Shown here: positions 32,792 to 57,695 of the stretch, one piece after another
Numbering within the stretch: the stretch's first letter is position 1
Layout of the letters: each line of letters begins with the position of its first letter
Assembly: GCA_016934315.1 (NCBI GenBank)
Contig: JAFGSY010000028.1
Span: 62,001 to 126,000, forward strand
Reading direction: 5' to 3'
Origin: Candidatus Anaeroferrophillus wilburensis
GTDB lineage: Bacteria; Desulfobacterota; Anaeroferrophillalia; Anaeroferrophillales; Anaeroferrophillaceae
Length of the DNA: 64,000 nt
The notes under the pieces: generated by a model
Databases searched by the model: none
Seen by the model: the letters and a program-made list of their open reading frames with translations, nothing else
What the model was told of the DNA's origin: nothing
Made by a program: the position numbers and the translations under genes

Positions 32792-33808
32792 TCACTGGAG
32801 AACCTTCTGGAAATAAGCAAAAATTTCCGGTGGGGTTACCTGAGCGGTACCCACTTTGCCGACCACAACGCCGGCGGCCAGATTGGCGACCGCAGCGGCT
32901 TCTCCCAGGGTTACTCCGGGAACCAGGGCACCCAAAGTCATCAGCGCAATAACTGTATCACCGGCACCGGTAACATCAAACACTTCCTTGGCCATGGTGG
33001 GCAGCCGCAGGACATCCCCATGCTCAGGAAAGACAGCCATACCTTCCTCGCCACGGGTAATAATGACCGACCTGCTGTGAAATCGCTGTTTAATAAACAT
33101 CCCCGCCCTTTCAACCGCCACCGGTGAATCAAGGGCAAATCCACAGGCCTGCGAAGCCTCGAAAGTATTGGGGGTAATCAGATCAATATGATGATAGAGG
33201 GGGAAGTTTTTCACTTTGGGGTCGACAGCCAGATAAACTCCTGCCTGACGGCAGCCGACAACCAGATCATCAAACAGCAGCGGGTTGATCACTCCCTTGC
33301 CATAATCTGAAACAATCACCCCCTCCACCTCAGCAAGCAGTTGTGTTACATGCTTCTGCAGCTGGCCGGCCGTCCCCGAATTCAGGGGATTAAGCGTCTC
33401 ACGGTCAAAGCGGACCACCTGTTGATGGTGAGCGACCACCCTGGTTTTCACCGATGTCTGCCGCTGATCATCCCTGACAATATATGCCCCGGAGCAGCCA
33501 ATCCCGGCAAGCAGAGAAAGCAGGAGATCTCCATTGCTGTCTGCGCCCACCACTGAAACAATCTCCGGCTTAGCCCCCATGGCCAACAGATTGCGCACCA
33601 CATTGGCGGCGCCGCCCGGCAGGCTCTGTTCGCGTTGCACCTGCACCACTGGCACCGGAGCCTCGGGAGAAATACGGCCGACCGTCCCCGTGATAAACTG
33701 ATCAACCATTACATCACCAATAACCATCACCCGCTTGCCGGCCATACCGGCAACAATATCGCTCAGCCGTTTGCGGGAAAACATTATGCTTGTCATGGCA
33801 TCAGTCAT
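32792..33808 (-). CDS. hldE1/rfaE1: D-glycero-beta-D-manno-heptose-7-phosphate kinase
   Basis: This 338-residue PfkB/ribokinase-family kinase matches the kinase half of HldE: DVMVDQFITG, RISPEAPVPV, GGAANV near the N-terminus, NTFEA, and catalytic VTGAGDTV near the C-terminus. It phosphorylates heptose 7-phosphate for the LPS inner core. The nucleotidyltransferase half of HldE is absent, so a separate HldC-type gene would be needed. ATG 33808 has GGAG upstream and lies 10 bases after era. The operon runs tadA-ahcY-era-hldE1. Confidence 0.92.
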   Translation of the reverse strand: MTDAMTSIMFSRKRLSDIVAGMAGKRVMVIGDVMVDQFITGTVGRISPEAPVPVVQVQREQSLPGGAANVVRNLLAMGAKPEIVSVVGADSNGDLLLSLLAGIGCSGAYIVRDDQRQTSVKTRVVAHHQQVVRFDRETLNPLNSGTAGQLQKHVTQLLAEVEGVIVSDYGKGVINPLLFDDLVVGCRQAGVYLAVDPKVKNFPLYHHIDLITPNTFEASQACGFALDSPVAVERAGMFIKQRFHSRSVIITRGEEGMAVFPEHGDVLRLPTMAKEVFDVTGAGDTVIALMTLGALVPGVTLGEAAAVANLAAGVVVGKVGTAQVTPPEIFAYFQKVLQ

Positions 33809-33818
33809 GGCAACTCCG

Positions 33819-34715
33819 TTAACGGTAGCCAAATCGCTTGAGAGCGGCGGGATTGCTGGTCCATTTTTTTTCCACCGCAACCCGCAGTTCCAGAAAAACG
33901 GGAATCCCCACCAACGATTCAACCTCCCGGCGGGCGGCTGTCCCAATCGCCTTCACCATCTGCCCCTGCCGGCCGACAATAATCCCTTTCTGGGATGAAT
34001 GCTCAACATAAATCGTCGCACCGATGACCAGGCGGCTTTCCTTATCATGGAAATAATCAATCAGCGCCGTGGCCCCGTAGGGCACTTCCTGACGGGTTAA
34101 TTGAAAAATTTTCTCCCGGATAATCTCCTGGACCCAGAAGCGTTCGGACATATCGGTATGCACATCGGGAGGAAAAAAGGCCGGCGACTCAGGTAGTTTC
34201 TGGACTACCGCCTGCAACACTCCCCCGATGCCGGTTCCCTTCAACGCCGAAATACCCAGCATTGGCACCTGCTTATCAGGAAGATACTCAGCAAGCAATC
34301 CATAAAGCGGCAATTCCCTCTGCCGGCGATCAACCAGATCGATTTTATTAAAAACCGGCAAAAAGGAACGCTTCTCACTGACCAGCAAGGCCAGCAGATC
34401 TTCCTCTCCCGGTGTCAGTGAGCTGGCATCCGCAGCGAAAAAAAAGAGGCTGACATCAACATCTCTGAGGACTGCCAGGGTACAGTCAACCAGTGCCTGG
34501 TTCAAGGCACCACGGGGACGGTGAATCCCTGGAGTATCAATCAGGATCAATTGGGCATCGGTCAGATTTTTGATGCCGACAATACGATTTCTCGTGGTCT
34601 GGGGTTTATCGGTAACGATGGCAACTTTCTCACCCAGCACCTGATTGAGAAAGGTTGATTTGCCGACATTAGGCCGACCGAAAATGCCGATATAGCCACA
34701 TCGAAAAGCGGTCAT
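33819..34715 (-). CDS. era: GTPase Era
   Basis: This 298-residue protein has a GTPase domain with G1 GRPNVGKS (13-20), DTPG, NKID and ISALKG. A C-terminal KH RNA-binding domain carries VGRQGQMVKAIG. Era binds 16S rRNA and is needed for 30S maturation. It lies 19 bases after ahcY and 10 bases before hldE1 on the minus strand. Confidence 0.97.
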   Translation of the reverse strand: MTAFRCGYIGIFGRPNVGKSTFLNQVLGEKVAIVTDKPQTTRNRIVGIKNLTDAQLILIDTPGIHRPRGALNQALVDCTLAVLRDVDVSLFFFAADASSLTPGEEDLLALLVSEKRSFLPVFNKIDLVDRRQRELPLYGLLAEYLPDKQVPMLGISALKGTGIGGVLQAVVQKLPESPAFFPPDVHTDMSERFWVQEIIREKIFQLTRQEVPYGATALIDYFHDKESRLVIGATIYVEHSSQKGIIVGRQGQMVKAIGTAARREVESLVGIPVFLELRVAVEKKWTSNPAALKRFGYR

Positions 34716-49400: not shown

Positions 49401-50021
49401 TTGTCGACCAAGAATCAGAACACCCGCATGCTCTGCATGTTGCTCTCATTATTTCTCTTTTTTCTGGCTGCAGACCTGCTGCTCTGGCCCTTTCTGCGCT
49501 ACAGTCAGGTCACCCCTCCCCAGCTTTCACTGTCAACCGGCAGTCACAATGATGCCATTGTCGTCCTAGCCGGCCGGGGGGGGAGACTGAAAACAGGATT
49601 TTCTCTCTGGCAACAGGGCATAGCACCTTATCTGTTGATCATTGGCGCCAATCCCCGCACCACAGCCAAGGACATCCTCACCCTCTATGCTCATGAACTG
49701 GAAGGGCACACTACTCCGCAAACAGATTATTTACTCCTTGAGAGTCAATCCCATAACACCCTCACCAATATTGTTGCTCTGCGGGAGATCATTAATGACA
49801 AAAACTTTCATTCCCTGATCATCGTCACCTCACCCTTTCATCTGAAAAGGGTCTATCATCTGTGCCGCAAACTACTCCCCAAACATATAGAGATTGTTTT
49901 TCACCCTGCCCCCACCACCGCTCCGGAGCTGGGTGACAACAGCAGAGCCACACCACTCCCGCTGGCCATTAAAGAATTCATCAAATATATAAACGCCCTG
50001 CTTCAGCTACCGCGAACCTGA
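49401..50021 (+). CDS. YdcF/ElyC-like DUF218 membrane protein
   Basis: This 206-residue protein has one N-terminal membrane helix (about 10-28) and a DUF218 domain. The domain shows DAIVVLAGRGGRLKTG, GANPRTT, the LESQSHNTLTNI motif and ITSPFHLKR-like text (IIVTSPFHLKR). Relatives include ElyC/SanA, linked to envelope integrity and undecaprenyl carrier metabolism. TTG at 49401 is the most likely start, with AAGGG upstream; ATG 49428 would cut into the anchor. The next gene starts 150 bases later. Confidence 0.85.
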   Translation: MSTKNQNTRMLCMLLSLFLFFLAADLLLWPFLRYSQVTPPQLSLSTGSHNDAIVVLAGRGGRLKTGFSLWQQGIAPYLLIIGANPRTTAKDILTLYAHELEGHTTPQTDYLLLESQSHNTLTNIVALREIINDKNFHSLIIVTSPFHLKRVYHLCRKLLPKHIEIVFHPAPTTAPELGDNSRATPLPLAIKEFIKYINALLQLPRT

Positions 50022-50171
50022 GTCATGGGCTACCGCAGCACCAGACATCATCGCGATTCATCCGCTCCCACAAAAGATTAACGTTACTTGCAATTTCGCC
50101 GATGAGTAGTATTATACGATAGACATATCATCCAGGCGGCATTATCACTGAGGAATGAGGAGGCAAACATA

Positions 50172-51860
50172 ATGGGCACCACCGTAAAACCGGAAAAAAG
50201 ATTTATCTTTCTTGGGGGAATTCCGGTCTTTGACTATCTGATCAACGTGGAAATGGAAGAAATTTTCCGGGCCACGGGCAGACAAGTGATTATAATTGAT
50301 AAAAAAATCCTCTTGCCGGTGGGCACAATTTTCAAGTGTATGGTAAAAGATCTGCCCAGGCCAATCTATATCAATCCACTGGCCAATGTGGAGGTGCAGA
50401 ATTTCAATGATGAACTCTATTATGCCATGGAATTGGGAGGCAAACACCCGGAACAACATGAAAGTCTCCTGTGCACTGAAGATCTTTCTCGCGTCGTTGC
50501 CGACTTGAAAAGAATGTTTCCCGATCTTATCCACGGCACAGAGGACCTTAAAATTGTCACCGTTGAAAGCCAAAGCGAGATTAAGCTGGGGGGCAACAAT
50601 CGCAATATTATTGAAGCAATTAAGACATTGTATGAATCACCGGAACTGGCTGGAAAAACCCGGGCAATCACTTTCGAGCATCTCTTTTTCTTCGATGTCA
50701 AAAATCGCAAGTTCAAAATCGTCAAGGAATTTTATCACAACCTCAACATTGATATCGGCGATATAACGGAGCTGCACGTGGACAACCTGATTCCAAGGAC
50801 CAGCTATGTCCTGACGATAAGCACCGACGACCAGGTATTGGACCGAATCGTCCTTTCCAACCGGACCAATGAAGAGATCATCCCCCCCAAGCGGCTTACC
50901 GACCGCTACTTCAAACTGGAATACAAGCTGCGTAAAGACAGACACTATATCAGTACCCACTTGGTCATCAATTCGCTCACCAACCATGAGGAGCTGCGGC
51001 TCATCACCCGGATCTTAAGAACTGCCTACGCCAGTGAAACAACCACCTACCTGTGCCCCACCGGCACTTTTTTCAAGTGTATCGACACCCTAATCGATTC
51101 CCGCTATTACACCACTGAAAAAGAGAAGTTCTTCACCTCCCGCAAAGAATTCCTCTTCACGTCCATTATCCCGTTTATCCAGTACTTAATCCTGAACACG
51201 GATGAATTGGCCATTCTGGACAAAGTTGCCGAAAAGAAAGGCATTGATTTCACCGCCAGTATGATTGCACGACGCATGAATCAGGGGCAAAAGGGGGAAA
51301 ATACCAAGGGAGGAAGGATGTTGCTGACCAGTGGCAACAAAGGCGCCCGGTTTACCGAGCGCCTGACTCCGGAACGGGCCCGTCTCTACTGGAAAAAAGC
51401 CAATATGCCGGAAAACAAGCTGTTCAGGTTCCGCTTTGCCGACCGACGGATTCTCTGCGGCGATGACCACATCATCGACCTGTTAAGCACTCTTGGGGCC
51501 GGTGATACCTTCAGCGGCATCTTCATCGGCCTGAAAGCGATCCGCTGGGATGCCGGGCATGCCATGCGCGGAGCAACCCTGGGAGCCCAGCATTTCATCC
51601 AGACCAGGAAACGGCCAAAAATTCAGGACATCATTGCCACCGATGAGAGTCACATCCGGAGCGGCACCGCCACGTACCTGCGGGATATCATCTCCCACCA
51701 TATCAGCGAAAGCGGCGACCCGACCCGCTATGGAACCATCACCGACACCATCATCACCATTGACACCTCCCAGATTCAACATCCGTTCAGGGAGGTTCTT
51801 GCCCTGGCTGAAACGGTGGCCAGCAGCAAAAAGAATACGGTTACCTCTTTGCCGCTATAA
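50172..51860 (+). CDS. Divergent PfkB/ribokinase-superfamily protein of unknown substrate
   Basis: This 562-residue protein is recognised as ribokinase-fold only in its last third. NTDE (342-345) matches the NxxE metal/phosphate motif, SGNKGARF (387-394) sits where the anion region is expected, and GAGDTF (442-447) carries the catalytic aspartate. The first 340 residues do not show the usual GG substrate motif of PfkB kinases, apart from FLGGIPVFDYLI (13-24) and LGGNNRNI (139-146), which may be remote counterparts. PfkB enzymes are usually 300-350 residues, so this is much longer, closer to ADP-dependent sugar kinases. AGGAGG precedes the ATG. A strong bidirectional terminator follows. Confidence 0.6.
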   Translation: MGTTVKPEKRFIFLGGIPVFDYLINVEMEEIFRATGRQVIIIDKKILLPVGTIFKCMVKDLPRPIYINPLANVEVQNFNDELYYAMELGGKHPEQHESLLCTEDLSRVVADLKRMFPDLIHGTEDLKIVTVESQSEIKLGGNNRNIIEAIKTLYESPELAGKTRAITFEHLFFFDVKNRKFKIVKEFYHNLNIDIGDITELHVDNLIPRTSYVLTISTDDQVLDRIVLSNRTNEEIIPPKRLTDRYFKLEYKLRKDRHYISTHLVINSLTNHEELRLITRILRTAYASETTTYLCPTGTFFKCIDTLIDSRYYTTEKEKFFTSRKEFLFTSIIPFIQYLILNTDELAILDKVAEKKGIDFTASMIARRMNQGQKGENTKGGRMLLTSGNKGARFTERLTPERARLYWKKANMPENKLFRFRFADRRILCGDDHIIDLLSTLGAGDTFSGIFIGLKAIRWDAGHAMRGATLGAQHFIQTRKRPKIQDIIATDESHIRSGTATYLRDIISHHISESGDPTRYGTITDTIITIDTSQIQHPFREVLALAETVASSKKNTVTSLPL

Positions 51861-51901: not shown

Positions 51902-51923
51902 AAGGGGGGCTAGCGCCCCCCTT
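51902..51923. terminator. Bidirectional terminator between convergent genes
   Basis: A perfect 9-bp stem (AAGGGGGGC / GCCCCCCTT) with a TAGC loop has a T-rich stretch on both sides. It separates the ribokinase-like gene (+) from the hydroxyacyl-CoA dehydrogenase gene (-). Confidence 0.88.
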
Positions 51924-55991: not shown

Positions 55992-57695
55992 ATGTTTAAG
56001 CCAAAGTTTTTCGTATTGCTGCCCCAATTGACCACATCACAACTTCTCCATGACCTCGTTGCCGGCATTATTGTTGGGATCATCGCGCTGCCCCTGGCGA
56101 TCGCGTTTGGTATCGCTTCCGGCGTTTCCCCCGAAAAGGGAATCATAACGGCGATCATCGGCGGCTTCGTGGTTTCCTTCCTGGGCGGCAGCCGGGTTCA
56201 AATTGGCGGCCCGACCGGGGCATTTATTGTTATTGTTTACAGCATCATTCAGACCTACGGCGTCGATGGACTTATGCTGGCCACGCTGATGGCCGGCATC
56301 ATCCTGATTGTTATGGGTTTCGCCCAGTTTGGTTCAATGATTAAATTTATCCCGTTCCCGGTTGTGGTTGGCTTCACCAGCGGTATTGCCGTGGTTATTT
56401 TTTCGAGCCAGATCAATGAGTTCTGCGGCATGGGAATCACCAAACTGCCAGCTGATTTCATCGGTAAATGGGTGGAATATTTCCGCCATCTTGCGTCGAT
56501 CAATTACCAGACTCTGGGCATTGGTCTGCTTTCACTGCTCATCATCATCTGCTGGCCAAACATATCGAAAAAGATTCCCGGTTCAGTTATTGCAATTCTG
56601 GCATCGACGGTACTGGTCCAGCTCTTCAATCTTAACGTGGCAACCATCGAATCGCGTTTCGGCACCATCCCTGCCTCTTTTCCATCCCCTTCCCTGCCAG
56701 CAATGAACTTAGCACTGATACGCGAACTCATTCCTTCGGCCATGACCATCGCTATCCTTGCCGCGATTGAGTCACTGCTGTCTGCGGTTGTAGCCGATGG
56801 CATGATCGGTGGAAAACATAAATCAAATATGGAGCTGGTAGCCAACGGTGTGGCCAACATCATCTCACCCCTGTTCGGGGGCATTCCGGTCACCGGTGCC
56901 ATTGCCCGAACGGCGGCAAATATCAAGAATGGCGGGCGCACGCCGGTTTCCGGAATAGTCCATGCCGCAACATTGCTGACCATTATGCTGTTATTGGGGC
57001 AGTGGGCTAAATTGATTCCCATGGCGACGCTGGCTGCCATACTGATTGTCATCGCCTTTAACATGAGTGAATATTATATCTTTAAGCGTCTGCTGAAAAG
57101 CCCCCATAGCGATGTCGCCGTTTTACTGACCACCTTTGGACTGACGGTTATTTTTGACCTAACCATAGCCGTCGAAATCGGCATGATTCTGGCTGTCATC
57201 TTGTTCATGAAAAGGATGGTCAGTGTTTCGAATGTCAGCATCATCACCCGGGAGGTAAAAGATGCCAATGAGACATCGGATGCCAGTGCCATTCAAAACA
57301 AGGATGTCCCGGAAGGGGTTGAAGTCTATGAAATAAACGGGCCATTCTTCTTTGGCGCTGCCACCAAGTTCAAAGAAGTGATCCGCCGCCTGGATAATCC
57401 GCCCAAGATAATGATTTTTCGCATGCGCAACGTGCTGGCAATTGACGCCACCGGCCTGAACCTACTGAGCGAGATTATCCGTGAGAATAAAAAGGAGAAT
57501 GCTCATTTAATCCTGTCCGGTGTGCATGCCCAACCAATGTACGCATTAACACAGTACGACATAATTGATGAAATTGGTTTGGACAATGTCTTCGGCAATA
57601 TTGATGATGCGCTGGACCGGGCAAGGGAGCTGCTTGGTTTTCCCAAAATGGGACGACCGAAGGATTTTGTCCCGGTGGTAAAACGGGAAATGTAG
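55992..57695 (+). CDS. SulP family anion transporter with STAS domain
   Basis: This 567-residue inner-membrane protein has about 12-14 membrane segments beginning near residue 15. It carries the SulP signature region [13 protein letters not shown] and [15 protein letters not shown] cytoplasmic STAS domain from about 440 includes [15 protein letters not shown]. SulP proteins carry sulfate, bicarbonate (BicA-like) or other anions with Na+ or H+. The substrate cannot be read directly; the neighbouring carbonic-anhydrase-like gene makes bicarbonate a reasonable inference, and sulfate is the alternative in a sulfur-metabolising organism. Confidence 0.9.

Follow-up and report, generated by a model that had tools for sequence, protein, structure and literature searches.

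A probable ribokinase-superfamily kinase of a so far unnamed family as a candidate for the missing phosphofructokinase of its bacterial order

Results

The gene and its local signals

The window (the whole stretch of DNA that was analysed, 64,000 nucleotides) carries on its forward strand a gene for a 562-residue kinase-like protein. The features located in and around this gene are as follows.

50157..50163, + strand: ribosome-binding site GAGGAGG, 8 nt 5' of the ATG (sequence reading)
50172..51860, + strand: reading frame for the 562-aa kinase-like protein, counted with its stop codon (ORF read from the sequence)
50196..50249, + strand: first strand and start of the lid, residues 9-26, with invariant Asp21 (model and conservation)
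50253..50564, + strand: putative enlarged, strand-rich lid, residues 28-131 (secondary structure of both models; boundaries approximate, as inferred)
50586..50606, + strand: LGGNNRN, residues 139-145, putative GG-N substrate-type motif (hhalign to GGGGIN of E. coli Pfk-2, and conservation)
50793..50798, + strand: invariant P208-R209, with R209 placed on Arg90 of E. coli Pfk-2 (profile alignment)
51195..51206, + strand: NTDE, residues 342-345, NxxE motif (sequence and conservation)
51495..51512, + strand: GAGDTF, residues 442-447, with catalytic-type Asp445 (sequence, hhalign and conservation)
51672..51857, + strand: C-terminal extension, residues 501-562 (model and conservation)
51902..51923, either strand: hairpin terminator between the kinase gene and a convergent dehydrogenase gene (terminator search)

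The ATG of the 50172-51860 ORF was taken as the start codon, with GAGGAGG located 8 nt upstream. The strong terminator that a sequence-only reading had placed after the gene was recovered as the 51902-51923 hairpin, which scores on either strand and is flanked by convergent genes. A search of Rfam on six sources (approximately 149 kb) for an upstream RNA element returned tRNAs only. In the 2.7-Mb draft genome of the source organism, the kinase gene is present as a single copy.

Sequence-level relationship to the PfkB superfamily

The window protein had no significant match among the Pfam, NCBIfam and PHROGs models. The PF00294 model did not match it at E up to 1, and the curated cut-off was not reached. 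When 18 family members were scanned singly at E up to 10, 15 of them touched PF00294, with a best value of 5.4e-7. Since the window protein itself is without a PF00294 match, the claim made here is one of superfamily membership and not of membership in the curated PF00294 model. The NCBIfam models for 6-phosphofructokinase 2 and 1-phosphofructokinase (PRK10294, TIGR03168 and TIGR03828) and for 2-keto-3-deoxygluconate (KDG) kinase (NF040938) left the window protein unmatched, as did PF04587 (ADP-dependent phosphofructokinase/glucokinase) and PF00365 (PfkA/PPi-phosphofructokinase). Across the family, the nearest NCBIfam models were KDG/KDGal kinase (NF040938, best member 0.019), IolC kinase (0.073) and 1-phosphofructokinase (TIGR03828, top value among the 18 members 0.12), none of which was significant. 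PDB sequences were also searched by profile, with no significant match, and no paper on the 562-aa kinase family was among those listed by searches of open-licence PMC.

A profile was built from the family alignment of 28 rows, in which one gene appears twice (as L027 and L045), so that 27 distinct genes are represented, and was compared with a 40-sequence PfkB alignment. The profile-profile score was 57.6 over columns 120-473. The 40 column-shuffled decoys scored at most 20.4, the reversed profile gave 18.5, and none of five unrelated neighbour families exceeded 24.2. Residues 340-480 reached 42.2 against the PfkB profile, and the top of 30 shuffled decoys was 27.8. Residues 1-340 alone scored 18.5, which was lower than the top decoy (19.7) and was reached by one of 30 decoys. 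The likeness to PfkB, which had been said to be confined to the last third of the protein, is thus borne out as such at the sequence level. The BTB_2 model was touched by 12 of the 18 members when E values up to 10 were allowed, the lowest being 0.00025, and by 9 of 24 when the limit was 0.1. In the window protein, these weak matches fall on residues 295-344, within the kinase core; they were treated as spurious.

Predicted fold

Two AlphaFold models were generated from alignments with different first sequences, namely the window protein and L027, and showed mean pLDDT values of 84.0 and 87.6, respectively. The Foldseek matches listed against the PDB were ribokinase-superfamily kinases, with E values down to 2.4e-13 and 8.0e-13. 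In VIA-align, the best match of the window model aligned 293 residues (model residues 8 to 486) at 2.8 A with Z 25.5, and that of the L027 model aligned 291 residues at 3.0 A with Z 26.0. The VIA-align matches listed were ribokinase-like kinases, and those for different substrates lay no more than about 2 to 3 Z units apart. With ribokinase, KDG kinase, phosphofructokinase and adenosine kinase tied in this way, the fold cannot pick out the substrate. ADP-dependent phosphofructokinase was not among the 50 structural matches listed, and a BFVD structure search gave nothing below E 0.001.

In both models, the ribokinase-fold matches span residues 8 to about 490-500. Since the fold begins at residue 8, residues 1-340 belong to the kinase itself and do not form a separate module; in the models, they comprise the first strand, the enlarged strand-rich lid, the GG-N motif and the central core strands. 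A choice had been posed between a fusion and a single long ribokinase domain that carries insertions; both models decide it for the latter. An unrelated 340-residue domain fused to a C-terminal PfkB piece, to which the lack of a significant PfkB sequence match in residues 1-340 might have pointed, is therefore extremely improbable, given that both models place residues from the first strand on, up to about 490-500, in one ribokinase fold.

The lid is modelled to be approximately 100 residues longer than that of E. coli Pfk-2 or RbsK, with approximate boundaries. Further putative insertions were placed from alignment gaps at about 297-322 and 400-433, again with approximate boundaries. The C-terminal extension (about 501-554) is predicted to form a strand-loop-strand-helix. 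Its loop S514-I523, SGDPTRYGTI, is identical at 8 of 10 positions across the 28 rows, with Ser514 varying in two rows and Pro517 in one, and is among the least certain regions in both models. These additions accord with the earlier remark that the length is nearly double the usual (562 aa versus about 300-315 in the ribokinase-like superfamily).

Taken together, the models and the profile comparison indicate that the protein almost certainly has a ribokinase-like fold and belongs to that superfamily. The features of the superfamily were found as follows: a ribokinase alpha/beta fold with a beta lid in the models, the GAGD and NxxE motifs, and a GG-N motif after the lid. The proposal that the protein forms a new branch within the ribokinase superfamily gains support from the two ribokinase-fold models and from the curated families, none of which claims the protein; a confident whole-protein match to a known family was looked for in Pfam, NCBIfam and PHROGs, and none was found. 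Our best guess is that the protein represents a deep, so far unnamed family of the superfamily and would act as a one-domain kinase.

Conserved residues and the putative active site

Twelve residues, D21, G140, G141, N142, N143, N145, N342, E345, G442, A443, G444 and D445, did not vary among the 28 rows (27 distinct genes). The ribokinase signatures claimed from the sequence were both found, NTDE within LNTDEL and GAGDTF. The sequence-only reading had also stated that the standard substrate motif is absent. This proved not to be the case, since LGGNNRN is present at residues 139-145, and its G140, G141, N142, N143 and N145 are invariant. The alignment of this motif to GGGGIN of Pfk-2 is weak without the C-terminal anchor. 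Asp21 was matched to the ribokinase substrate Asp by eye and by the order of structure elements.

Invariant R209 aligns with Arg90 of E. coli Pfk-2, which we take to be the residue for the sugar phosphate; this alignment depends on its anchor in the C-terminal part, and the stretch is not significant alone. Among 40 references, an Arg at the Arg90 position was found in Pfk-2, FruK, two Pfk-2-like proteins, three KDG-kinase-like relatives and two others; E. coli KdgK is without it. As read from the alignment, R209 would suggest, without proving, an acidic or phosphorylated substrate. An equivalence of Ser139 of Pfk-2 to the invariant N267-S268 was considered by eye, and no claim is made of it, as hhalign shifts the pair by about three residues.

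Occurrence and neighbourhood

Homologues were found in 21 of 59 genomes at 53-80% identity, comprising 20 of the 22 genomes of its own order (G000-G021) and one further genome. Since the ORF is kept in 20 of these 22 genomes at 60-80% identity, it is far from a chance reading frame; in one of the 20 carriers, the contig ends within the gene and leaves only 80 residues of it. A profile search of 395 genomes across the phylum detected the gene in 24, always as a single copy. A contig scan by exact peptide patterns, which were taken from one sequence, returned 6 loci and missed most known carriers. No relatives were found on viral contigs, on plasmids by tblastn, or in PHROGs. The homologues are known only from the organism's own phylum, on which the genome searches were centred. 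The gene tree broadly follows the taxonomy, with its own order (19 rows) and other families (8 rows) forming separate groups.

In its own order, the kinase gene lies downstream of a run of genes for EF-G, a SPOR protein and RelA-SpoT (rsh), and usually faces a 3-hydroxyacyl-CoA dehydrogenase gene, which is followed by ssb. Of the 12 own-order loci compared, 9 have rsh upstream, and the other three (L066, L067 and L022) stop short of that position. In other families, the neighbours are genes for lactate racemase, a KaiC-like ATPase, an RlmL-like methyltransferase, polysaccharide deacetylase, an AAA ATPase and a CMAS methyltransferase. A conserved operon was sought; the neighbours differ in distant families and none is kept outside the order. 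No sugar catabolism or transport genes were seen among the neighbours in the loci compared. Since the neighbours differ between families, the kinase gene appears to travel alone, which fits a housekeeping enzyme.

The YdcF/ElyC-like gene reported before the kinase gene was confirmed as a DUF218/YdcF-like gene (PF02698, 1.8e-17) at 49401-50021 on the forward strand. It has a TTG start and sits between rsh and the kinase gene. It has no counterpart in the other own-order loci compared, and with the neighbours differing elsewhere it carries no signal as context. Elsewhere in the window, the gene at 55992-57695 (+) encodes a SulP-family transporter, the strongest curated match of which, the DauA C4-dicarboxylate transporter, lies below the model cut-off.

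Phosphofructokinase in the order and in the phylum

Phosphofructokinase catalyses the committed step of glycolysis. According to a passage in PMC12203962, this enzyme is supplied by two non-homologous superfamilies. We surveyed phosphofructokinase, ADP-dependent phosphofructokinase, phosphoglucose isomerase (PGI), class II fructose-bisphosphate (FBP) aldolase, glucan phosphorylase, transaldolase and KDPG aldolase. PF00365 was found in 0 of the 22 own-order genomes. PF04587 was likewise found in 0 of 22, and in none across 59 genomes, while the control search was positive in two methanogens. The class II FBP aldolase was present in 22 of 22 own-order genomes, glucan phosphorylase in 18, PGI in 17, a transaldolase-family protein in 19 (one being a weak fragment match) and KDPG aldolase in one. 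Therefore, with aldolase, phosphorylase and PGI present, the pathway exists on either side of the missing phosphofructokinase. The only canonical PfkB protein found in the organism's own genome was a heptose-7-phosphate kinase domain at 32795-33946 (-) of the window (rfaE_dom_I, 2.9e-104).

The own-order PGI match (e.g. G000:C7:54701-55333) spans approximately positions 96-309 of the 486-position profile, in frames of approximately 350-620 aa, and this partial coverage points to an unusual or fused phosphoglucose isomerase.

Across the phylum, PF00365 phosphofructokinase was found in 348 of 395 genomes. It was absent from 20 of the 24 carriers of the kinase gene, as against 27 of the 371 non-carriers. 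The 20 carriers without it comprise 16 genomes of the order and four of the family f22 (G041, G191, G214 and G236), as judged by their absence from the 348 positive genomes and, for G041, also directly. In G041 (which has the kinase gene at locus L020, G041:C1:4125102-4126739), the only f22 genome checked for class II FBP aldolase, the match was weak and longer. The four f22 sequences branch among those of families that keep phosphofructokinase, suggesting a second, separate loss of this enzyme. Fisher's test of the gene against phosphofructokinase gave p 3.6e-17; it ignores kinship, there being two lineages, and was not relied on.

Four carriers (G113, G256, G295 and G314) also have phosphofructokinase, so the gene is not simply a replacement for it; their listed contamination is 1% for G113 and 5-9% for the other three. 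The 27 non-carriers without PF00365 have neither gene. A phosphofructokinase gap can thus be lived with, for example when the pathway is run only towards sugar.

Discussion

The presence of glucan phosphorylase, PGI and FBP aldolase in an order without a recognised phosphofructokinase leaves a clean metabolic gap, for which the 562-aa protein is a concrete candidate. The explanation that we favour, tentatively, is that this kinase of an unnamed family carries out a phosphohexose reaction and stands in for the absent phosphofructokinase of its order. By homology, the nucleotide and the sugar would occupy the cleft that separates the alpha/beta core from the lid, Asp445 of GAGD would be the base with the GAGD loop as the anion hole, and N342 and E345 would hold the metal; these roles of the invariant residues are borrowed from the superfamily. 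A phosphohexose would then be phosphorylated, most likely fructose 6-phosphate to fructose 1,6-bisphosphate. For an acidic or phosphorylated sugar as substrate, the case appears evenly balanced, and fructose 6-phosphate as the physiological substrate is a proposal that we make with some doubt. As both genes occur together in four genomes and are both missing from 27, the substrate is something that we infer. Going further, the protein might be a third kind of ribokinase-superfamily phosphofructokinase, unlike Pfk-2 and the archaeal ADP-dependent enzymes, which displaced the PfkA type in at least two lineages of one phylum and the enlarged lid and C-terminal loop of which carry a new donor specificity or regulation; we consider this rather unlikely.

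The protein may equally be a ribokinase-fold kinase for another small substrate, such as a 2-keto-3-deoxy sugar acid, a nucleoside or a sugar, with the absence of phosphofructokinase a coincidence of two gluconeogenic lineages, and we regard this as a serious possibility. The NCBIfam near-matches led by KDG/KDGal kinase and including IolC kinase are consistent with it, as are the structures of KDG kinase, adenosine kinase and nucleoside kinase within about 2 Z of the top and the 27 genomes that do without both genes. However, KDPG aldolase, which would be expected beside a KDG kinase, is nearly missing from the order (1/22), transport or catabolic neighbours were not seen, and glucan phosphorylase together with FBP aldolase argues for a capacity to break down hexose phosphates. 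Even with such a substrate, the protein belongs to a conserved kinase family that goes unrecognised by Pfam and NCBIfam in the source genome.

A kinase for sedoheptulose 7-phosphate, or for a mixture of this and fructose 6-phosphate, would act on the same type of substrate and would find its partner for a pentose-phosphate bypass in the class II FBP aldolase of all 22 genomes. Since a transaldolase-family protein is present in 19 of these genomes, the usual need for such a bypass is missing, and we consider this activity improbable. Still less probable is a non-catalytic or regulatory ribokinase-fold protein encoded downstream of the RelA/SpoT-like gene; the position of rsh in 9 of 12 own-order loci and the near-invariant C-terminal loop, to which no role is assigned, would suit it, but every catalytic element is invariant and no rsh gene was seen next to it in distant families.

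The proposed phosphohexose kinase can be compared with known systems. It shares the fold, the motif order and the GG-N, NxxE and GAGD Asp elements with the PF00294 superfamily (RbsK, Pfk-2, FruK, KDG kinase and YdjH), and differs in its greater length, the enlarged lid, the two insertions and the C-terminal extension. E. coli phosphofructokinase-2 (pfkB) resembles it in the fold (3uqe, Z 23.4 and 24.4) and the proposed reaction, and perhaps in the Arg that the anchored alignment puts at the Arg90 position; the window protein is 253 residues longer, shows 15-17% identity in the structural alignments and is without a match to the NCBIfam models. The ADP-dependent phosphofructokinase/glucokinase family is characterised by a large lid and a long chain. 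The window protein is likewise large-lidded and long, but is without a match to the model of that family, which a passage in PMC12203962 places in the same superfamily as the ribokinase-like kinases. PfkA and PPi-phosphofructokinase, described in the same passage as having a fold non-homologous to the ribokinase superfamily, have only the proposed reaction in common with it, and this family is absent from the order. No specific sequence similarity was seen to E. coli inosine-guanosine kinase Gsk (434 aa), which has a Pro at the Arg90-aligned position; the likeness lies in Gsk being an enlarged member of the superfamily, and its structure 6vwo was among the Foldseek matches listed.
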